The notes beneath the pieces were generated by a model, which was given only the letters and a program-made list of their open reading frames with translations, was not told the origin of the DNA and made no database searches. 64,000 bases of DNA from Hirudinaria manillensis (lineage: Eukaryota; Annelida; Clitellata; Hirudinida; Hirudinidae): contig CM067532.1 in the NCBI GenBank assembly GCA_034509925.1, forward strand, positions 1,643,142 through 1,707,141, written 5' to 3'. The first letter of the stretch is position 1. The number at the start of each line of letters is the position of its first letter. Both the position numbers and the translations under genes were made by a program. Below are positions 963 to 54,025 of the stretch, one piece after another.

Positions 963-22928
<21,966 letters not shown>

Positions 22929-26525: not shown

Positions 26526-27573
26526 TCAACTGCTGAAACCGTTGAACCTTCCCGCCACCTGTCTCTCTGATTCTTTATCTTCTGTCGTCTGCCGCCTTCG
26601 ATTCAAATAATTACTTTTATTATTGCTCTATGGCTATCATGATATAATGTATTACTGATCACATCATCATTTATAATAACCATCGTCGCACATATTGTCT
26701 TAACTAAGACCATTGGTATATCTTGGAAAACTTTGAAAGGATGCAGGTAAGGACAGACGAGGGTAAGGGTGGAATCTTCCAGTGCGTCCAAGGCCTTTCA
26801 AGGCATACGACTCACTCATAGGATCAGTTACATACACACACACACATGCGCACACAAACACACACTCAAAGACGGATGCCTGTAAGTCCTGGAAGTCATC
26901 TCGATTGATTAAAGCTCATTCGTCAGTGATTGATACTCTCTTTAAGTCCACAATTCGACAATATCCAGACGCATTGGAATTGTAATTCCTAACTCATTAA
27001 AAGAAACTAGTAAAACGTTTAGTATAAGATTAATATTATTACTATTATTTTTGTTTTATTATCAAATTCACCTCCATTTTGTCCTTCGATTCTGAAACCA
27101 AGTCTTGACCTGAGCGTCTGTCATCCTAAGGACTTTGGCCAGAGACGTCCTTTCGGTAGATGCCAGGTACTTTTGCCTTCTGAATCTCTTTTCCAGCTCT
27201 ATGATCTGGAAACGAGAGAACGAGGTACGAGGTTTCTTCCGCTTTGGAGAGGATCGGTTTTGGTAAGGATGTCCTAGGCGCCTCTGAGAAGAAACTGGAA
27301 TTGAACAGTAGTGCTTGTCCAATCTTTCTTGGTGAACGTCATATGATTTCATTAATAAATTACGATGCTATTGATTTGATTACATTGCATTTCGTTGGTG
27401 GATCCTATGTTGCATTTTGTTGAATGTCTTAGTACGACAAAGAATTGTAAGAGGCGTTGCAACCAAATATTGTAAAGTCTGGATTAGGACAATCGTAAAG
27501 ACTCAATTTATTTAAGTAATCATTTTACAATATAATAACCACGTCGATCATTTACTAATCTTGGTAAACTTTA

Positions 27574-31949: not shown

Positions 31950-34258
31950 CTTTTTCCAAATCACAAGTCTAAGAAACGAATGTCGTCGATGTTGGCGGAT
32001 TTATATAATTTTATACGAAGAGCTGTTCGCTTAATATAACAATTCGTACATATTCAGTTTATTAGTTTATTTACATGATAAAACTTAAAATAACTAAATC
32101 ACATGTCAGTAATAGGCATATAACTATAAGGAAAATGAATCAAAGTCGCTAGAATAGGTTGCAAGTTTAAAAATAATCTATTTGTGAATCAGTTATTTCC
32201 CTAGGTGGCAGAAGTGTTTAATATTTGTCGTAGTGTAGTAGTCATGAATTTATTTATTTTAAAATTTAACGAAGTTTAAAATTAATGGTTGATTCATATA
32301 ATGTCATCCATTAGACATATGTTTGCCAAATTTCAGCTCATTTGGATCTCGCGAAGCAATCGAAAATTCGCAAGATTAGAACTTCCACATACCAACTTAA
32401 AAAATAAAAACGTGTAACAATTATTTTATCTCAGTCGATGACGACGGTAACGATAGAGATGACTGCAATATTAATTAGAAAATGGTAGCTTTATACAGTA
32501 GGTCAATGCAAATTGTTACATCTTTTGCCAATTTTGAATAATTAATTGGTCTCAAGATTAATTTAGGGTATCTTCGTTCGCCGTCAGAAGGGGATTAAGT
32601 AATAAGTCATTGGAACTCCCAGTACGACCTATCGATATACAACTACAGATATCTACATTCCGGTATTTATTTTTATTTATTCGAGACGAACGAAGGGCCG
32701 AGGCCTCTGACACGTTCCGAAAAACAACTGAAGCGCAAATAGAACATAAACAATCGCCATTCGGGCTTTAAAAAAAAAACAAAAAACTCTTGTACAGATG
32801 TAAACTCGTGATATTTAAGGTATTAGTTAAGGTTTAGTTTGCGGATCTCAGCATTGAAGCGGGACGTGGTTGAGGAGTTTATTAAGCAAGAACACTTTAT
32901 TGCAGAAAGACATAACAACTTTTTATTTTTATTTTTTATTTTTTATTTTTCTGGGTCATTCCAAATCTTCAGAATCCTTCTCCAAATCTACGTCCTAGAT
33001 CTAGATCTTGTTAGTCTTTATTGACTCGTACAACTTTTTGCCCTGCCTTGGGGTTCATACATATTCATGTTTAAGAAATTCTGACTAAGAGTCGCGGTTC
33101 ATAAGACATAGTCCTATAAAGGCAGGAAAAGGCAGACCACGCCTCTCGGCATAAATAGCAAGCTCATGAATATTTAGTATTGCCTGAGAGTTCTGCAAAT
33201 TCCTTCGAGGGAAGACAATTTGAGAAATACATGTGTACGTGTCTGTTGTTACATCTTTTAATTGTTATATTAACTGATATTTTTCACAACTTTCAGAATC
33301 TAATCAATCTAGGCTATTGCAACTCAATTAGCATCGGCTTTCCATTTATCTTCATCTAATAGTAGCGTTTTGTAAAATAGGGAATTTTTGCTGCAGTTGT
33401 GAATAAATGTTCATCTGGCAAATAACATGCCTTGAAAATTAAACTGGAAGTAGGTTATGAACCTTGGGGGCGGAGATGGTGTGAAGGCTAAAGGAAACCG
33501 CAGAATTCAGAGGACAAGTTAAATATTTGTGAAAATTAAATTTTGCTAACCTAGCCAGCATCAATTTTTGATTTAGTAGAATTTAATAAAGTTCTTTAAA
33601 AAAAATGGTATTAACATTTCCAGTGCCTATATTATATGGGGTTAATGTTAAGTCTTGGATACAGATGACCAGTCGCCAGTCGCTTTGATAAGACAATTAT
33701 TTGCAAAAATGTATATATGATAAACATAACCATATTTTTAAAAATATTTTATTGCAATTTTATTTTTATAACATATTTATTTTCAATGAAATCGTGAAAA
33801 ATATATCTTATTCGAATGCTTTGGACAATGGCCATATTTTCATTGGCGCTTTGTATATTTATTTGGCTTCAAAAGTAAATGCGCCGAGAAGGCGAACATA
33901 GGCCCCGAATTTGTATGTCAAGTCGCATTTATATTGAGATATTCAGTCCCCGCTTACGTTTTTTTTTTGGAAGGCGATAAATCACCGAATTTGCTAGCGA
34001 ATTGCGAGCATTTACATCGACCAATTGATCCAAACCATGGTAACTACCTTGTGTATTGTCATGACATCCATCTACCTATTAAAATATTATTGACGTAAGA
34101 AAATTTCTGAACGTTGCAGAATCTGGATAGCACTTCGTCAATTCTTGGGATCAATTTAATACTAAAAGTTAATTGAGTCAACTGAACTATTACACAGAAA
34201 AATTAACAAATTTACTAGTCTAAATATTTATCAACTATGCCATTGCATTGGTTCCTAG
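31950..34258. other. Intergenic, AT-rich
   Basis: No supported gene. A 21-codon frame with ATG at 33453 (MNLGGGDGVKAKGNRR) followed by a weak GTTAAA donor in the right phase could be the first exon of the THAP gene downstream, but this is speculative. CCATGGTAAC at 34036-34045 is an X-box-like half. Confidence 0.4.
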
Positions 34259-37200
34259 GATGTGGTCAAACAGACTCCCACTACAGCAGCATCAAGTTAT
34301 CGAACAAGGTCCAGCCTCGGAATAAGACCAAAAAAGAGGCAATCATACGGAGACTTCATTGAACTCCCAGTAAAATGATATTTCCTTTAAGCCTTTCCAT
34401 GCTTTACCACCTACTGATACAAAAACTAACCTGTTCAAGGTTAAGAAGAGGATATCTAATAGCTCTGTTACAACACCCCAGAAAAAAGATGAGAAGCAAG
34501 CATCCATTTCTGTTGCTCCTATTCCTCCTGGTGAGTGAAATTTCCTGAGAATTTACGTTTTTGTTGACTCATTTATCTTTTGAGCATTTACAATGTTGCA
34601 CGTCATTCGTATGTGTTCCCTCAGGCATGAAGGAAAATTGGTTGAAGCAGCTGAAAATAAAATAATTGTTATTGTGTTATTCTTAGTAACTTTGTGGAAA
34701 ATAAAGAAATTTAATGTTAAAGTTAATTAGTTAAGCTAAAGGTTAAAATAAGGTCTGATTATAGTTTAATTAAAGTTTGAAATAGTTAAGAATGTGAAAT
34801 TTAGTTAAGAACAGGTTGAATGTAAAAAGTTCAAGTTTTGGAGCAATTCTAGTCATTAAGTTTGATACGCTTTTTTCAGCCCCTTCAGACGATGCAGAGT
34901 CTAAGAAAGAATTCAGGTAACGAACTACTTTTAGTAAATGACTTGCATATTGCCTTGATTTCTGGTAAAGTATGCATGGTAAACTGTAGTCTTACTTTGC
35001 CAGTGCCATAACTCTAAAAGATTGCTTCGTCCAATTGGAAAGGCTGCCATTTTGTTCAAAGACTGAGATTCTGGAGGTGCCCTCAACGTCTGCCTCTGCT
35101 CACAAGGTTGGAACTTTTGCCTGAATTGAGTTCTCGAAATTTAGCTGGGAAAATGTTTAACAAGTTTTAATTTCTTTGGACAAATATTGTCATAAATGTT
35201 ATTGATGTTGTAAATTAATTAACTTCATTTTGTGCTGAATTTGAGTTAACGCGACCGTGTTGGAGCACCATTGCTTCGGTAGCAATCTTTTTTCAAGATT
35301 AAATTTGAAATGAACTTTAAAATTCATTATTCATCAAATTAAACTTTAAAATACACAATATAATTGCATAAATTCAGCCGTTCAATCGCTCGGCTTGAAT
35401 TTGCATGATGTGATGATTTGTGACAAAATTTTTATTCTCACGAAGGATGTCCCGACCAAGAAGTCAGAAGCTAAGAAATGCTGCTTTCCTGGATGTACGA
35501 CCACAACTCAAGAAGAATTCTACGAGTGAGTGCATCCAATGATTTACTTTATGTGTGTGTGTTTTTTTATATGCAGTTCCAAAAAACTATTGTCGTTTAG
35601 CAATGCTCTGAGGTCACAAATAATGTTGGAGATTATTTTTGATTGTTAAATTGCAAGTAGGTTAATATTTGATTAATATTTGGATCATAATTTCCTCAGA
35701 GTGTCTACATACTTGTAAATCATGCAGTTGAGCTAGACATACTTCATTTAACAACAATTTGTAAATATAGCTGCTAATCAACAATAATGATGATAATAAT
35801 AATAACAATAACAATAATGATAATAATAAGAATAATATTAATAATAATAGTATTAAAGTTACTAAGCACAAAAAAAAAGGACAATCCGAGTACTTTAGCA
35901 GTGCCATCCACTGATTCCAGGATGCCACGGGACTCAGACACAAGGGAAAAGTGGTCAAAGCAGCTGAAGAAGAAGCTTGTTCTGGGGACAGTGGTGTGCT
36001 CAAAGCATTTCCAAGCCGGTGATTTTGTCCAGTCTTCGAGTGATGGAAAGTCGACGCTAAAGGAAGACGCCGTGCAGAAGAAAGTTGCACAGGTGGGCGC
36101 GGCCATTGCGATTCCTCCTCCGTCGAACTTTTCTCATTAATTTTAAAACGACTGTTAATCCGTGAAACTGGATCAATGGAATTGATGATCGACAGAACGC
36201 TGTATGCTCGAATGCAAACGAGTCCGGCCATTTGGGCATACGGGACACCATAGAGGAACTGTTCAGCAAGAAGATCATCACAGAAGCTGAATACAAACTA
36301 TTGGAGCCTTTCAAAGGTTTGAATTGATTGATTAGTTTTTATAAATTATTTTTATAATCGAATGAAGAATTGCTTGTGGGATTCAAAATATTGGAATTGC
36401 CGGGGTACACTTTAATTAAATTACTTAGTTTTAGCCCTGCTTTAGGCACTGCTTTTACAAGATTGTGATTATTTTATGATTAGCTTTTAATTTCATGGCA
36501 GCTATTCATGGTCCTCAAATACAACTCAAACATACCCTTTCATAGGTATCACCGAAATCTTTGTCACTTTGTAACAGAATATTTATCTCTTACACAGGAA
36601 TTAAATTCTCTTGGGACATATCATGAATTTGTGATTTTGTTGTTGTGATTTGATGTGATTATAACTGGTAATAAAAAAAAAATCAAATTAATTAATCATT
36701 TCAGATCTGACATGCACTGACATTGAGCTCAGAGAAAGAGGCAGCAACAAGGACAGGGTCGATTCCTTCGTGGAGGTGCTTCGCTTGTGCACCGAAGAGG
36801 CCAACAATCTCTTCAAGAAAGCAATTCCTCTGCTCCATAGATCTGGGTAGGATCTCCTTGTTACCATATTGGAACCACTCAAAACAACAACTTTCTCTCT
36901 TCGTAGTGCTCCCAATTACAGGGCGACAGTTCGTGACCTTTTCCCCGACCATGGCAACCTCCGACCTCCCGTCGAGACGTCATCGGACCTCGTCGACATC
37001 CTGATCGACCAGCAGCTCGTCCTCGAGGGGGTCAAAGCCCTCGTCGAAAGTTCAGCATGCAAGTGCTCTCCTTGTTATTATGCATTGCTATGAACTACTG
37101 TTATGATGCGCTCGTTCAATGTATTGTCTCTCTATTGAGATTTTTTGTTCTACAAAGGTCAATTGTTAAGTTAACCACCCTTCATTCAAACAGCTTTCCA

Positions 37201-39564
37201 TCTATCCTCTCTCGAACTGGGTGCTGACGATCCGTTACTGAAGCAGAAGATCGAACAATTCTCGAAGATCATCTTCCTCAATTCACCACAAACGTATAAC
37301 AGGATCAGAGAGCCGTTACACCTTCCCACTGTTTTGTTAGCCATTCAATATTTATTTGGTTGAATATCTATCTAGTTTTAAATTTAACAAACTTAAACTC
37401 AGTAAGAGATAATAATGGGTGCTAGTTAACATAACAAAGCATTAATAATAATTAATAATAATAATAATAAATAATAACCAAACAATTTCATTACGTTCTT
37501 GTTAACTGCTTGTTTTGACAAACCTATAACTATTTTCAGGTCCCTCTTCCCTTCTCTTAATCCCCCTGAAAGCAAGTGCCCATTTGATTTCTTGTCAATA
37601 TCCTGGCAAAAATAATCAATTGATCAAACCAACTCGTATATTATAACAATTTATTTCTTTACTAATACATTTTAATCTAAATAATAAATCTTTTAGACGA
37701 AAGCCGTGTGGAGTCCCTGACTCTGGGGCAGCTCCTGAACGAGGCTTCGAGGTTGAATTCTATGCCGGACGAGTCAATACGAAGTCTCATTCCGTTCGGA
37801 GGTTTGAGATGCCTATAGATATGGCTTTAATGCTTCAGTGGATTTATTTTTAGCTTGCTCTCCTTCACGACCCGATCAATGATTTATGGTCTCTATGACT
37901 CTTGTGGGCAGCTCGGATCCGAACTCCCATCTGAGCCGAGCAATGGCCGTAACCCTTCGGCCGCAGATGCTTGATTTATTTTATGGCTTGTCCTCCGTGA
38001 ATTGCGGAGAATAATTTATGAATTTAAAAAAAATGTTTGCTCATTTGCTTTCTGAATTAACACAAACGTCTCATTCAGGTTGCCAGTTGTGTCCCTATTC
38101 AAGCACTACGGTCAGCATGTACAAGCACGTCATATCCTCCATTTTCTTCAACGCCCCGGCATTCTTCAACTTTCTGGCAGAGTATCTACCTTTGCCAAGC
38201 ATACTGCTCTTTGCGAAGTGAGTTGGATGATTCAATTTAGACGGTTTTATTAATTTTAATATATTTAATGATATTTATACTTTTTTAAACCTAAGGTCTC
38301 CTCTCAGCAAAGAATGCGATTCAACAGGTTCGTAAACCATCAGAATTATAGTGATGTTGCTACATGTGCTTTCAGTTCAATTATTAACTTACTGCATTAA
38401 GCTCCATTAATGCCTCAGTTCAAAATTAACAACAGTCTATTTTTAATCAACAAAGCCGACCAAGAGGAACCCCAAACGTCGACGGCAGCAGAAGTAAAAA
38501 AGCAAGTTTCTGAATCCCCATCATCCTCTACCAAAACGCACGACAATGGCTCCAAAAACGAAAGTGAAACCGTCACTCTGAAAACGCCAGCCGCTGCGGA
38601 AGTCCCCGTATCTTCGGGATCCAGCTCAAAAGATGAATTTATGAGATGCGTTTGTCCAAAGACCGGTAAAAACGTCGCCAAGTTAGACGTGGACACGGAC
38701 GGCTTCCTGCCCAAAGACTTGACGGTGAAAGTCGTCGGGCATGTCCTGACCATAACGGGCTGTCGAGAGGAGAACGGCCAGAAGACGGAGTTCCTGAAAA
38801 CGATCGAACTGCCAAACTTTGTGGACGCTGACCAGGCTGGCTGCTACTACTTCAAGGGGAAAATGTCCATTCATGCACCCATCGTCGAAACCGCGACAGA
38901 GTCGGACGATCACCTCTCTTCCAGCACGAATGCGACCAATTCCGAGTGCTCTGCCGTCGGAAAAGAAAAAGCAGATTCGAGGCACGACCTGCAAGTTGGG
39001 GACAGCTCGACGCCAAAATCGACGAGGAAGAAAGCTGCCAAGTCGCTCTTCTCGAAGCCGTCGCTGGTGTCTAACGACGACGACCTGCCCAGGAACGTCG
39101 CCGTCTTGATGAACGTCGACGGCCAAGAATATGTCAGTCTCATCGCAGAAGTCAGCAAGCTTTTCAAGCCGAGCGAGATCACCGTCAAGGTATGACTTAT
39201 CAATTAATTATTGTTACTGATTTTAATACTTCAATTTATAATGCGAGCCTGACATTAGGCAGCTGCAAGTCAATAAAGAGTTCCACACTCTGCTTCTGCA
39301 GAGTCTTGCATTTCATTAGTAGAGAAAGCTTAGTTAATGGAGATTTACTTATTAACGATGCAGGTCAGAGAGAACAGAATCATTAGCGTGAAGGGCGAAA
39401 CACGCAGCAGCGATCCCCAGTCAAAAAGTAGGCTTTACGCCCTGATAGAAAGGGAATTCGACCTTCCAAAGAAGATCGACAAGAGCACTTTGAAAGCCGG
39501 ATGTCCCGGAGACGGGTTCCTGAAGATATTCGCCAAGGTGGCCTCGGACGAGAACGGACTTTAA
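34259..39564 (+). CDS. THAP zinc finger fused to tandem alpha-crystallin domains
   Basis: Fifteen phase-compatible exons: 34259-34308, 34392-34530, 34880-34916, 35004-35106, 35446-35525, 35921-36092, 36196-36316, 36705-36846, 36907-37058, 37194-37358, 37697-37801, 38079-38217, 38296-38327, 38402-39189, 39364-39564; 807 aa visible, 5' end missing. Residues about 121-190 form a THAP DNA-binding finger (CCFPGC, 35 residues, then CSKHF; later LKEDAV). Residues 196-290 are helical (IRDTIEELFSKKIITEAEY) and may be a CARD/DED-type fold. A C-x2-C motif (CQLCPYSS) follows near 425. Residues 557-635 (FLPKDLTVKVVGHVLTITG, LPNFVDAD, GKMSIHAP) and 690-800 (FKPSEITVKV, REFDLPKKID) match small heat shock alpha-crystallin domains. 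I know of no protein with this combination. The intron after 37058 appears to use a GC donor, and the one before 37697 a weak GT. A separate small heat shock gene starting at the ATG at 38410 is the main alternative. Confidence 0.65.
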
Positions 39565-40392
39565 GTTACGTAATGCATGGAATGTTGTTTCTTATCCATC
39601 ACCACTTCAAAGTTTACCGTCAGGGCACGAAATCCCTGCAATCATTGCATTTTGAAAAAGAAGACCGTTTCCTTAACGATTAATTAATTAATTAATTGTA
39701 ACCGTCGCCAGTTTCTTCGTTACTTTGTTTGAATATAGAATGAAGGATCATTTTGACTTCTTACCATTTGTCGTCAGAGGCGGACTCTTCCTCGTTCTTG
39801 TTTGCAGCAGAGAAACAACTTAACTTAATCATTTATTAATTCGATTGTTGTTATTGATGATGGTTACTGGAATGTTGAACTTGGGAATCCGATTGCTCGT
39901 TTCTTTGTTAATTTTGGCTCTTTTTGCTGGAAGAACAAATGTCGATCCTTGAGAGACCTTTTCAGGGAGGACCAAAGGTCGACGGAGCAGAACAAAGTTG
40001 ATGTAAACAAGACTATGATTTGCAATTCCGGTTTCGAGATGATGAGAGATGCCGAATTCGTTTGATGTTTTTTTGTGACGATGCGATGCTCTGTCTATGT
40101 TCTAGCTTTGGTACTTCTCCTTAGCCAGTTTTGTTGGTCTGTGATGTTGGCGATTTTTATTTTTGTGAGGATATGGCCTCAAGAATTATTTTGCAAAGTT
40201 CAAATTTATTTCCTGACTATTAACTTGAATATTAACAACTTACAAATTCATAGATAAATTAATTTACAATTAGTGTGTAACAAACGTCAACAAATTCATC
40301 TTAATTTAAAGTGGCTTTTGGCTCGTGGCTTTTGCCCCCATCGTCGGGGATGCTCCCAAACCGGCCTCTGTCCTGAGCAGAAGAGAACAGGT
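39565..40392. other. Space between convergent THAP-fusion and RAD21 genes
   Basis: Convergent 3' ends. A minus-strand AATAAA (read at 40210-40205) lies about 185 bp past the RAD21 stop and may be its polyadenylation signal. A tRNA-type B-box (GGTTCAAATCC) straddles the right end near 40390. No gene seen. Confidence 0.4.
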
Positions 40393-43300
40393 TCAAATCC
40401 TAGGATAGGACAAGTTCTTGAACTTGGGTCCCCTGGAAAGATTTATGTGCGAATATGATTCTGCTTGTGCTACGTCTATGAATCCATCTTTCTTCATCTC
40501 TAATAGAGTGTAAAATAGGAAGCACGCTTCATGTTTGCTTTGTACTAGTAAATCCTTCAAAGCGGAGGAGAAGCCGATGGTGTCTCCGGCTCCGTGCAGT
40601 TTGTTTCTCAGGAATTTGATGAATCCTCTTTTCAAGTCGGTAATTGGTGCTTTAGTCTGAAAGATTGATTGATCGATTGATTGATTGATTGATTTGTGGC
40701 TAAATCTGCATAAATACTTATCATGGATTGAGGCAATGGGCTATAAAATTCTCTTGCTGATATGCACAATGCATAGTCATTTTGCAGGATCTAATTATGA
40801 TTAAATTATAATAATAATTAAAGTAAATCCCCGATTGAGATTAGGATGGAAATTGTGTGTTGACCTTCTTCGGTGTCGTGACCATTTCGTAGGCTCTGAT
40901 GTTGTTTTCAAGAGGTGAAAAGGGGTCGAATACACTGAATCTACAGCAGCGAGGCAATACAAAGAGCTCGGGTGAAACTTGGAGTTCAGGTATGTTTTCT
41001 TTCGATCCAATAAGGTCATCAGTTGAATCATCTGTTCTTTTCTTGGCCTTTCTGTCTTTAATCACTTCTTTTGGTGGCTTTGGTAAATCATTGTAAATGA
41101 TTAATTCAACTTAAACTATTGAAAACACCTACAATGTATCTAGGTTTACTAAGATACTAAGAATCTAAGAGCAAATAGTTGTGAATTTGAAGGCCGAACA
41201 AAGGTTTTTGTTCCCTTGATTTGACTTGCAGATTTAATTTTGTTGTTGTTAATTCAGACTTAAAACATTGATTAAATCTGTTATTATGCTGATGACCATA
41301 TTTGACCTACCAGATCTGCCTGACTATTCTGAGCCTCATCAATAATCTGTTCTTTCTCTTTGAGACCATCTAAAACCTGCACAACTGAAGAACAAGAATC
41401 TCTGACTTAATTATTCATTCAAAACATCGGTAAGTGTTTTGTGCACTGTTCCAACCATCGGTTGCTGGAGGTGGTTCCACGGGAGCATCGTTTTGTAGTT
41501 CAAGATTTTCAGTGGAGATGTTCAATGTGCATACGTTTTCCTCTCTTCCATTCCTTGCTTCTCTCCTGGCAACTTCAATGTCAGGTACATCTTGATGATC
41601 ATCTTCAGGTGAGACGATCATGTTACTTTCTAACATCTTTGACAATAAAATATTTTTTATAATGCAACTAAGACCGATTCCTAACAGCCCTTGTGAATGT
41701 TTAGTTCAGGGGATCAATAAGTGTCTGTTATAAAATTATGACAAAATCCAACCCATAAAACCCATGATACTTTTTCAGACACTGTCATAACTTAATGTAA
41801 TGAAAAAATTTTCATATGATTAGACCATCTGCGCCACAACTGTAACTTTACTCAAGGCTAGTATAAAGATGGCATCCAGCCCTACCTGGATTAGTATTGG
41901 ATGAATGAGGTGCTGAGAAGAGCGCAGAAATATCTGAGGAACTCGACCACTCTCAGAGACTATCATAATCTTTTTGGTGGGAGGAGCCAATTCCAGGCCT
42001 GCCTGAAGAATGACGGCAGTGTCACTCAGGTGGCGCTTCATGGCCACTTTGGAGATGACTATGGTCTGGTCAATGATTAACTTTCTCCTCTTTTTTAGTT
42101 TTATTGCTGTATCTTGATGGTAAGATAATAAATTTGCTTGTTACTAAATTAATTCTTAAAGGTAATTCAACTAATACATAAAGGTGATCATTAAATTCCC
42201 TCTCGTAAAGGCCAAAACATTGCCTTTAGATAAACCCAATATCAAGATATTTAAAATTTAAGACTGAAAAGTAACATTTAAGTAAATATTCCATCGCACG
42301 TTGGCAAACTTCTGATTGTTGGCAAAAGTCTGATTCGTATTGATGACAGTGATGACTGAAAAGGGTCTAACCTGGATCATAGAGAATGTTCTTATCCAAT
42401 GTGATGTCCAAATCTGAGATTTTTATCAATTAACATTATTAACATAACATTGAAAATTCCTGGCAATCATCCAAATGTTAAATTACACCAACTAATATCA
42501 ATAACAAATTGATAATAATAATAATAATTTTAAATATTTTTGTTAGGAATAATTTTCCTTTCTTGGCTTAAATCCAATGAAATTTCATCTCATTCTTAAA
42601 AGAATCATCCTTTAAGTTTAAAATTGTATAAAATCATAAAAAAACATAATTTCTTAAACTGTTACAACAACAATTATCATGATTAACCTTTATTGGTTAC
42701 AAGATCCTCAGGTTGTAAGCCTGATTTGCCAATGAACTCAATGTCATCAGATATTTTCACCCTTTTATGCTTTCCAACACCAATTTCATCAGCAACTGAG
42801 ACTTCTTCCACTCGAGATTTCCTCTTGGATGGCTTTGATTGGTTTATTACTTCTGTTCCAGAACACCACAGTAAAAAAACACATTAATAATAACCATTTT
42901 GAATTAAGGTTAAGTATTTGGTTAAGTATTGATCAGTCTAATATAAAATAATAACAAAAGCTAATATAAAAATAAAATGGACTTCTAGAACAAAGTAAGC
43001 CTTATCTTGATCCATCTAACATCTAGCTGTAATAATTTATAAAAAGGTATTTTATCGTCAATATCATCATAGAAATAGAACTTCAATAAGTTTTGACAGG
43101 CAAAGAGGAATAAATTCAGGCAAACCATCAAGATGTGTTTCTGGCACACAAGCAACATCCACCTTCTTAGCTGTGATGTCTTTGGAGGGACCTTGTAAAG
43201 GTCGATGAAAACTGGATCCTAAAATCAATAGTTCAACAAATTGCTTGACATAAAACACAGATATCTTGATAAAATACTTTAATTTAAAAGCTTTAGTATT

Positions 43301-49200: not shown

Positions 49201-51294
49201 AAGAATTGATTGAATAAATTGATTGCCAAATGAATTTCACTACTTCGAATTGGATACTGTTACGACACTGCGTTCCCGAATCGCTACAGATTTTTATTTA
49301 TAAAAATTCGTTCCATATTATCCAAACAATAAATATGGGGTGGAGCGATTAGGCTTGGCACTATTATTTTTGATCGTGAGTTACATATAATTTTGCCAGA
49401 AATATTAATAATTGTATAATTGTTTCGCATTTCAGGGGTGATAGTCTTATCCAACGGTGCTTCCACCATGAAATCTCAGAAGAACATGCAACAGTCCTAC
49501 TATCGCTATCAACAACAACCACTACATCCTTCGATAAGATACCAGGGTGAATCAGAGGTCGACAACTATAAAATCAACCAGGGCTTAAGGAACATGAAAC
49601 TGGCAGACTCAGCAGAAAGACACGTCACCATAGTAACTCACGATAGTAACCTCAAGCAAAACCCTGTTCCGGCGAAAAACCCTGCACAGGTTAGCATCAG
49701 GGAGCCGACTAGCAGCTATTACAGCCAATACTATACCAGGAACGAATTGACAAATCTCAACCTCAACGCCACCAACAACCACAAAATATCATCCAATCGT
49801 CCCTCTTACAAGATGGAACGCCCCAGCGTTGCCGTCCAGACTGGCCAGCAACGACTGGGCATCGACCAGAAAGGACCGAAGATTCAGAGCAAACCATCGA
49901 TCAAATTGGACCACAGGCACGACCTAAAGATGGTCTCTCTGAATGATTCGCAGCACGACGGTGCGACTGGAAACTATAACAGGATAGCAGTAATGGGAAG
50001 ACCCGTCCAACAAAATCAGCAACACAGAGTTAACGGAGTCGAACGAAGGACGAAGTCTTACGATGTTAACAACAACTATGGCCATCTCGAAAAGACAGTC
50101 TCCAGTCAGGCCCTCTTCATGGACATAGCATGCAGCGACGTCGAAGAGGAAAGCGGAAGCGACGAAACTTTTCGCGACTCGAAACACAACAAGACGTTCG
50201 GCAATCGAGACGATAAGCTGCTCCAAGTTCCCAACGTAAAGTACGGCCACGTCAATTCAAAGCACAGAAATCGCCATGGAAAGAACTCGAAAAGTCTCAG
50301 CGACCTACGTTTTGACAGGATGGCTTCAGAGAGGACACTGGTGAAGGAAGAATCGGACGATGCTGACATCGAGAACGAGAGTCAGGTCACTGTTTTGTTC
50401 GCTCAACCGGAAAGACAAGATGGATTCAGAGAAAGGGCGGTAGTCCAGGTTCCGAGTAAGAAAAGTCTTCCAATCAACCCTATGCCAGATGTCGTCCATA
50501 GGAATGGCTCTGGAGTACGCTATAGAGAGACGGCCAATAGGTCAATCAATGGAGACAATCGCAGGATTATCGCAAGACTGCCTCCTACTGTGAACAATCG
50601 GCCTCACTTCAGCAGCACAGCGAAGGATTCTTACTTCAGTAGGATCTCCGGACAGGATTCTGACACCTCTAATTTCTATCTTCGCCACAAGAGGCCTCCC
50701 ATTAAAAAGTATCCGAGGCGTTTCAAATATTCTAGTGACGCTGACTTCTCTGGCAGTGAAGACATGCCCAGACAAAAGGGGATACCCTACAGTTACGTGG
50801 ACGCGGGCTATTTTCAAAAACCGAAAATGAAGGCCAGCAAGAATTATAACAACACTGCCTCCGACCTTGAAACAATTGCTAAAGGAAGAGCATCCTATAC
50901 CAGCAATTACTCTTTTGGCGAAAGTTATCCGCCCCCGGTTATGGCAAACAACATACGAGGCAACAGACTCTCCAGTTCTTCCATGTTTCTCGAACCTATA
51001 GAAGACAGCCACATGTACAGAAGAAATATAGTTCAGGGAGCGATGGACGGCAGACACCGGGCTCGCTCATCTTCTGCCAAAGTCCTCAGTGTGAGCAGAC
51101 TTGGTCAGCTTGTGCCTAGAGATGTCCATACGAATTACTTTCCAGCCTCGCACGGCCCTTCCAGTCTCGGCCAGGCAGGACCGATGCCTAGAACCCTAAT
51201 TTCCATCAATGACAGCCAGCCTTCCTTTCAAGTTAGGAGACCAATTAGAGATCATCCGCAGGGTTCTTACAAGCAGGTCATAAATCTCCGTTAA
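46218..51294 (+). CDS. Unrecognised 830-aa protein with disordered tail
   Basis: Five exons in phase: 46218-46370, 47694-47817, 47922-48113, 48592-48756, 49436-51294. The start MAEDTGYEKVKLNPQRMIL has a good context (AGAATGGCGG). The first 210 residues look folded, with alternating hydrophobic and charged segments (FLNEFPKIVAIDRDYRGIL, WDYLQVKVDKSQKIRFPISF, HYLVVHPLDD, EHLWVMMVEGHREM). The single large last exon (about 620 aa) is low in hydrophobic residues and rich in Asn, Ser, Arg, Gln and Tyr, with basic patches, acidic clusters (EEESGSDETF) and many SR/RSSS sites, typical of a disordered, phosphorylated cytoplasmic or nuclear tail. No signal peptide or membrane helix. I do not recognise the family. 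Putative polyA signal AATAAA at 51929-51934. Coding status is well supported by length and splice phase. Confidence 0.75.
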
Positions 51295-52491: not shown

Positions 52492-54025
52492 AAGATAGGA
52501 ATTTCACATTTTTCCTAATTTCTCGAGAACTAACCAATGAAATTTGTTCAAATTTGGGCATTGCATCATTTTATCACACACAAAACACCTTGTAAAATTT
52601 GAGCTTCCTATGACTAATACAACTTGTAAATTGAATAATAATGTGTTTTTAGACTTTCCAATAATGATAGGAACTTTTTGCATATGTGTTATAAAATTTA
52701 TATTACAAGGTTCATAAGATCTTCAAAGTAAGTTTTAGTGATATATAAACATGAAACATTGACAAAAAAAAATCCTTTTTAGTGTATTAGTTACAGTTTA
52801 ATGATGGGTAGAGGTAAAACTTTGTCTGAAAATGAGAAGGGGCAGATTACAGCCTTCAGGAAAGCTAATTATTCCTGCAAGATGATTGCTAAAGAGCTCA
52901 ATAGGTCTGTACATGTTATTTCTAATTATTTGAATGCTCCTGAAGCTTATGGTAGCAAGAAATCTCCCGGAAGGAAGAAGAAGCTGTCCGCCAACCAAGA
53001 ACGACTGCTGGTTAGAAAAGCATCATCAGGTAGATTTTCTGCAAATCAGCTAAGAACAGAGTTAAATTTACCTGTATGTAAAAGCACAGTATTAAATTAC
53101 CTAAATGGCAGTGGTATTTTAAAGTATGAGAAGAGATTAAAAGTTCCAGCCCTACAAGAACATCACAAAGTTGCCAGGGTTCAGTGGGCAAAAACGATGT
53201 TGTCAAACGCTGAAGGTTGGAAGAATATAATATTTTCTGATGAGAAAAAGTTCAACCTAGATGGTCCTGATGGTCATCAATGCTACTGGCATGACCTAAG
53301 AAAAGAGAAGGAGACATTTTTTAGCAGGAATCATGGGGGTGGAACAGTGATGATTTGGGCAGGGATTTCACATGATGGAGTCACTGATTTGGCCTTCCTC
53401 CAAGGAAGGCAAAAGTCAGTAGACTACATCCAAGTATTGATCAATAATCTCCTGCCCTTCGCCAAGAGGAAATATGGACGGAATTTTGTATTTCAGCAAG
53501 ACAATGCTCCTATCCACACTTCGAAAGTGACAAGAGACTTCTTCCAGGAAAATAACATCAAGGTTTTGAGTTGGCCAGCTCGTTCACCGGATCTCAATCC
53601 TATTGAAAATTGTTGGGGTGAGTTATCAAGAGCAGTTTATAAAGACCAAATTAGAGCTGGAAGATGCCATCAGTGTCGCCTGGAAGGAGATGAAATTGGA
53701 CTACATAAGAAAATTGTGTTTGTCTATGAATAATAGATGTTTCGATATAATAGAAAAAAAAAAGAAATATAATTTCGTATTGAATAACATTTTGTGTGCA
53801 AAAAATAAATTTCTGATCTTATTATTGACTTTCATCGCCAAATTCTTATCATATTTGGGCGCCCCAAAAAAGCGTTTTCGTTATTTCTCAATTAGTGTGA
53901 AATTAATACTCAATGAAATTTTTATACATAAATGTATAAACACTTTTTACATAACATTTTAAAATTTGAGTAAATTTCGTGAAATATAACATGAGTTACC
54001 ATAAAAAATCACTTTTTCCTATCTA
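52492..54025 (+). mobile_element. Tc1-family DNA transposon with decayed inverted repeats
   Basis: A 1,534-bp element flanked by TA on both sides (52490-52491 and 54026-54027), the Tc1/mariner target duplication. The left end AAGATAGGAA and the reverse complement of the right end TAGATAGGAA match 9 of 10, and a second block, GAAATTTGTTCAAATTT against GAAATTTACTCAAATTT, lies at exactly the same offset (48) on both sides. The repeats therefore extend at least 65 bp but are heavily mutated between the blocks. It carries the transposase remnant at 52801. The element is probably inactive in cis. Confidence 0.75.
52801..53962 (+). pseudogene. Tc1-type transposase, frameshifted
   Basis: The first frame (52801-53733) starts MMGRGKTLSENEKGQITAFR and contains the helix-turn-helix DNA-binding region (ANYSCKMIAKELNRSVHVIS), an AT-hook-like PGRKKK linker, and the catalytic core: IIFSDEKKFNLDG for the first Asp, FVFQQDNAPIHT for the second, and SPDLNPIEN for the Glu. 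Exactly 34 residues separate the second Asp and the Glu, so this is DD34E, Tc1 rather than mariner. After AVYKDQ near 53650 the family-like sequence continues in another frame (LELEDAISVAWKEMKLDYIR), showing a frameshift, and that frame runs on without the usual stop to 53962. The catalytic triad is intact, but the C-terminus would be wrong. Confidence 0.85.

Follow-up and report, generated by a model that had tools for sequence, protein, structure and literature searches.

Does a single leech gene join a THAP finger to two alpha-crystallin domains (ACDs), or do two adjacent genes lie end to end? The question arises from an earlier note on 64,000 nucleotides of Hirudinaria manillensis DNA (the whole stretch analysed, hereafter the window), which had read one protein across both kinds of domain. 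The locus is best explained as a single gene whose product runs from a THAP finger through a helical middle region, in which one or more units are CARD-like, to a small heat shock protein of the spiralian double-ACD type.

Domains at the two ends of the locus

The canonical THAP finger claimed for the upstream end was confirmed. The two THAP exons, when joined, matched PF05485 at 47 bits and an E value of 4.5e-12 (cut-off 23.9 bits), and the C2CH residues are spaced as C-x3-C, a gap of 35 residues and C-x2-H. The coordinates of these and all other features of the locus are collected in Table 1. Searching the genome (148,429,096 bases in 23 contigs) with PF05485 at E ≤ 0.01 gave 10 THAP matches, this locus among them, and only this one (35446–36092) lies near an ACD locus, on the same strand. 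Given 10 THAP matches and 6 other ACD loci across 148 Mb, the probability that two fall this close by chance (within 5 kb and on the same strand) is approximately 0.001.

Table 1. Features of the THAP–ACD locus, with positions in the window.
Feature	Position	Strand	Support
Heat-shock-element-like site, five alternating GAA/TTC units	34099..34121	+	13/15 bases matched
Tentative 5' coding exon	34990..35106	+	Coding score 15.1 nats; used by held-out gene finder
THAP exon 1 (first zinc-binding pair)	35446..35525	+	PF05485, both exons joined, 47 bits
THAP exon 2 (C-x2-H)	35921..36092	+	PF05485 30.7 bits, this exon alone, genome search
R1 first exon, CARD-like	36196..36316	+	Own-genome CARD profile 10.7 bits, 0/1000 shuffles as good
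R1 second exon, CARD-like	36705..36846	+	Same CARD profile match; coding score 21.7 nats
R2 first exon	36907..37049	+	Coding score 17.3 nats; boundaries tentative, gene finder start 36922
R2 second exon, doubtful	37194..37296	+	Coding score 0.8 nats; skipped when run free, included only when forced
R3 first exon	37704..37801	+	Coding score 10.4 nats
R3 second exon	38079..38217	+	Coding score 12.7 nats; donor 82nd percentile
Microexon of 32 nt, needed for fusion	38296..38327	+	4.1 nats
Exon with low-complexity arm, ACD1 (~38677–38895), linker and ACD2 start (39145 on)	38402..39189	+	ACD1 alone, HSP20 27.1 bits
Last exon, remainder of ACD2 and stop codon	39364..39564	+	ACD2 alone, HSP20 34.5 bits

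Both of the small heat shock domains claimed downstream likewise passed the HSP20 cut-off of 20.8 bits singly; they lie at 38.68–39.55 kb on the strand of the THAP finger. The whole ACD part scored 55.1 bits in two stretches, the similarity between ACD1 and ACD2 was equalled by 3 of 2,000 shuffles, and the PDB sequence matches to residues 90–162 of this part were small heat shock proteins. For the beta-sandwich fold of small heat shock proteins, a single-sequence structure model of the ACD exon reached a mean pLDDT of just 44.6. Searching the genome in six frames with HSP20 gave 7 matches, none of them at this locus, likely because its ACDs are divergent and because an intron (39190–39363) splits ACD2. 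A protein search found the best ACD paralogue at C8:6673603 (35% identity), where a double-ACD protein occupies a single 400-aa frame. Small heat shock proteins usually carry an I-x-I/V motif after the last ACD, which is not required; by eye, none follows ACD2 in the translated last exon.

One gene or two

We modelled the locus using a gene finder that adds splice and start matrices to a codon-position Markov model. Its training set (261 confident exons and 134 introns) came from genome samples, small search loci and the window, except that 33–41 kb of the window was held out together with any loci repeating it. Run free, it returned one fused chain from 34611 to 39564, from THAP through both ACDs. 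The single frame proposed previously thus stood, in that a frame-compatible chain links all three domains, whereas the exon count of 15 and the 34259 start proposed with it were not confirmed: the chain has 13 exons (14 with the exon at 37194 forced in), and opens with an exon at 34611–34667, followed by 34990–35106, with the 5' end tentative. The spliced model is 710 aa long with a pI of 6.06. Splice percentiles refer to a self-trained set of approximately 149 introns, with the window among its training sequences. Its donors are loosely constrained at the third intron position (A 0.28, C 0.19, G 0.29, T 0.25), which makes splice prediction uncertain genome-wide.

The fused chain depends on how the middle region is spliced to the ACD exon. 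With the exon at 37194 forced in, the fused path scored −12727.5 through the acceptor at 38402 and −12728.1 through 38456, against −12730.1 for a chain split at the ATG at 38410; across start rates of 1/2000 to 1/20000, the held-out gene finder put the fused path ahead by 1.6–3.9 nats. Without the microexon, the fused path (−12733.7) loses to the split one (−12728.7). The junction from 38327 to 38402 that had been put forward is feasible but weak, its donor ranking at the 80th percentile and its acceptor at the 9th. Given this small lead, the dependence on the microexon and the poor acceptor, sequence alone is close to neutral on the join.

The same numbers leave room for two adjacent genes, a THAP and helical protein ending at around 38335, followed by a separate double-ACD protein with its own start at ATG 38410. 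The ACD frame opens with that ATG, the split model lies behind by just the 1.6–3.9 nats given above, the fused acceptor is weak, and other double-ACD proteins of this genome stand alone, as does the 400-aa frame of locus L010. Against two genes, only 74 bases would separate the stop codon from ATG 38410, 38230–38400 contains a single TATA-like match (at 38260), and no strong heat-shock-like site lies near the 38410 start. Three-unit heat-shock-like sites do occur at 37.8–38.42 kb, one with 1 mismatch inside the exon at 38079–38217 and two with 2 mismatches. Neither AATAAA nor ATTAAA was found in 38218–38420; as both are also missing past the end of the gene, in 39565–40400, this is uninformative on a split. 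Alternatively, one locus may yield two products, the long THAP form and, under other conditions, a short double-ACD form from the internal start. ATG 38410 is in frame and an acceptor at 38376 (13th percentile) would permit the short form, but the promoter scan before 38410 gave no evidence for it.

The strongest reason to join the leech parts into one gene comes from an earthworm. Among nine double-ACD proteins from Eisenia fetida transcripts, the accessible part of the report describes one, EfsHSP59.doubleACD (PQ603081), in which CD-search places a THAP domain alongside two ACDs (Tilikj et al., May 2026, PMC13226371). This transcript argues against two genes, and it also overtakes the statement in the earlier note that no protein with both domains had been described. 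Being an assembly, the transcript may contain errors of its own. Together with the chance of nearness estimated above, it nevertheless makes it unlikely that accidental neighbours have copied a rare annelid architecture. We therefore consider it likely that a single gene encodes the THAP finger and both ACDs; two adjacent genes seem improbable to us, and a second, short product from the same locus somewhat more so. On this analysis, the locus probably encodes a real annelid stress protein and is not an accident of gene prediction.

The middle region and its surroundings

Between the THAP finger and the ACDs, no Pfam family passed its cut-off. We divided the region into three parts (R1–R3) and compared them with a profile built from five CARD segments of the leech's own genome, in which CARDs gave 23 matches at E up to 1, nine of them over the cut-off. 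R1 was the best match, with none of 1,000 shuffles scoring as well, compared with 43 for R2 and 174 for R3, and hhalign aligned R1 with the genome's CARDs at a probability of 41%. When the profile was run over 482 segments of predicted proteins, including those of a locus that repeats 10 kb of the window, the top two overlapped each other around R1; their scores of 8.8 and 6.6 bits were below that of R1 as cut by hand (10.7 bits). The Pfam CARD model matched none of R1, R2 and R3 at E up to 10. From these profile comparisons, a death fold in R1 is possible.

We also considered whether R1–R3 are three clean tandem repeats, and rejected this. The similarity of R1 to R3 was matched by 1,659 of 2,000 shuffles, which leaves only a weak case for tandem repeats; the corresponding counts were 45 of 2,000 for R1 and R2, and 85 of 2,000 for R2 and R3. 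A genome search for paralogues of the middle region gave six matches, all of which are the locus itself, and each of two PDB sequence searches gave only one irrelevant weak match.

The THAP part and middle region could in principle represent a P-element-like transposase that was domesticated and joined to a chaperone. Directly after the THAP finger, R1 matched the P-element helix-turn-helix family PF12017 over profile positions 2–68 of 73 at an E value of 0.098. The match reached 13.5 bits against a cut-off of 23, neither of the two PF12017 matches in the genome passed that cut-off, and the 710-aa model matched no transposase family at E 0.1. The P-element origin raised for this region is thus unsupported, and we regard it as very improbable.

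Other features of the window were recorded alongside the locus. An open 316-aa frame at 52783–53733 (+) encodes a Tc3-like transposase (DDE_3 at 62.4 bits, with Tc3 helix-turn-helix families), and an open 624-aa frame at 49420–51294 (+) matched no Pfam family over its cut-off. Immunoglobulin-domain exons lie at 10370–14388 (+), with I-set at 31.4 bits in 13960–14388 and a weak match, below the cut-off, in 10370–10951. A predicted gene at 26526–27352 (−) has a partial homeodomain (25 bits; cut-off 22.9). A TGAT-type repeat of approximately 1.7 kb at 18456–20235 produces three overlapping long INQS-repeat frames on the minus strand that are not genes. Rfam gave no matches over the 64 kb. Elsewhere in the genome, hirudin-family exons on contig C4 gave four matches, three of them over the cut-off, in keeping with a leech genome.

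Proposed working and comparison with known proteins

Upstream of the THAP end, the heat-shock-element-like site of Table 1 is the sole site in the window with at most 2 mismatches to the GAA/TTC consensus. Sites of this quality numbered 2 in 254,000 bases, and the simulated mean was 0.43 per 64 kb. The position of the site was noticed after looking, and is therefore suggestive only. Scanning approximately 1.5 kb either side of the HSP20 match at five HSP20-bearing loci (L001, L002, L003, L007 and L010) revealed no site with 3 or fewer mismatches. At another such locus (L006), a heat-shock-like cluster at 2649–2862, including one site with 1 mismatch in 15, lies approximately 1 kb from the HSP20 match on the minus strand.

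We infer from these features, starting with the predicted leech splice junction, a stress-induced, nuclear chaperone with two ACDs that is tethered by its THAP finger. Stress would act through the heat-shock-like element at 34.1 kb to increase expression of the gene, the finger would hold the protein on DNA in the nucleus, and the tandem ACDs, as a built-in dimer, would hold unfolding proteins there, while the middle region may gather copies of the protein. The product would act as a DNA-targeted chaperone or stress sensor. As a whole, this mechanism is possible and we put it forward tentatively. If the join is confirmed, the protein would be a chaperone placed on DNA by its own finger and a case of chromatin-targeted protein protection. 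The more specific proposal, in which the CARD-like middle supplies death-fold assembly units to a small heat shock protein anchored on DNA, appears unlikely; if true, chromatin, protein-folding stress and cell-death signalling would be connected by a single annelid chain that stress induces.

Among known systems, the leech model resembles THAP-domain DNA-binding proteins in having a C2CH finger of the expected spacing, but its partner domains are chaperone domains and other sequence precedes its finger at the N terminus. Tandem ACDs are common to the model and to spiralian double-ACD (dimeric) small heat shock proteins such as Tsp36 of Taenia saginata. In the accessible part of the literature, double-ACD proteins are on record from annelids and flatworms as well as from phoronids and some molluscs, and a 2022 annelid survey covers 228 small heat shock proteins from 23 species, mostly with two ACDs (PMC9075518). 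These proteins are described there without THAP, a word that is absent from the main text of the survey, whereas the leech model has a THAP finger. Among the matches listed for THAP paired with alpha-crystallin, Hsp20 or small heat shock in the open-licence PMC literature, only the Eisenia paper looked relevant by title and the opening of its abstract. The leech locus is thus probably the second known case of an architecture first described in 2026.

Both earthworms and leeches belong to the clitellate annelids, and a THAP-chaperone limited to one lineage is in keeping with an annelid. The leech gene is likely the counterpart of EfsHSP59.doubleACD, compared by architecture and not by sequence: in each, one annelid protein has THAP and two ACDs, and the long N-terminal helix before the ACDs is missing, with THAP in its place. 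As far as the accessible account goes, the earthworm protein has a predicted nuclear location, and 7 h of endosulfan at 21 °C raised it (PMC13226371). According to the same account, it is 525 aa long (5' incomplete) with a pI of 8.23, compared with 710 aa and 6.06 for the leech model; it has cysteines in strand beta-7, of which we saw none by eye in the leech model; and no CARD-like middle region is mentioned for it, whereas the leech model has R1 (PMC13226371). If leech transcripts confirm the join, the architecture would be common to earthworm and leech and would date at least to their common ancestor. To the picture from the earthworm transcript, the leech locus adds a gene structure, a candidate heat-shock promoter and the middle region.
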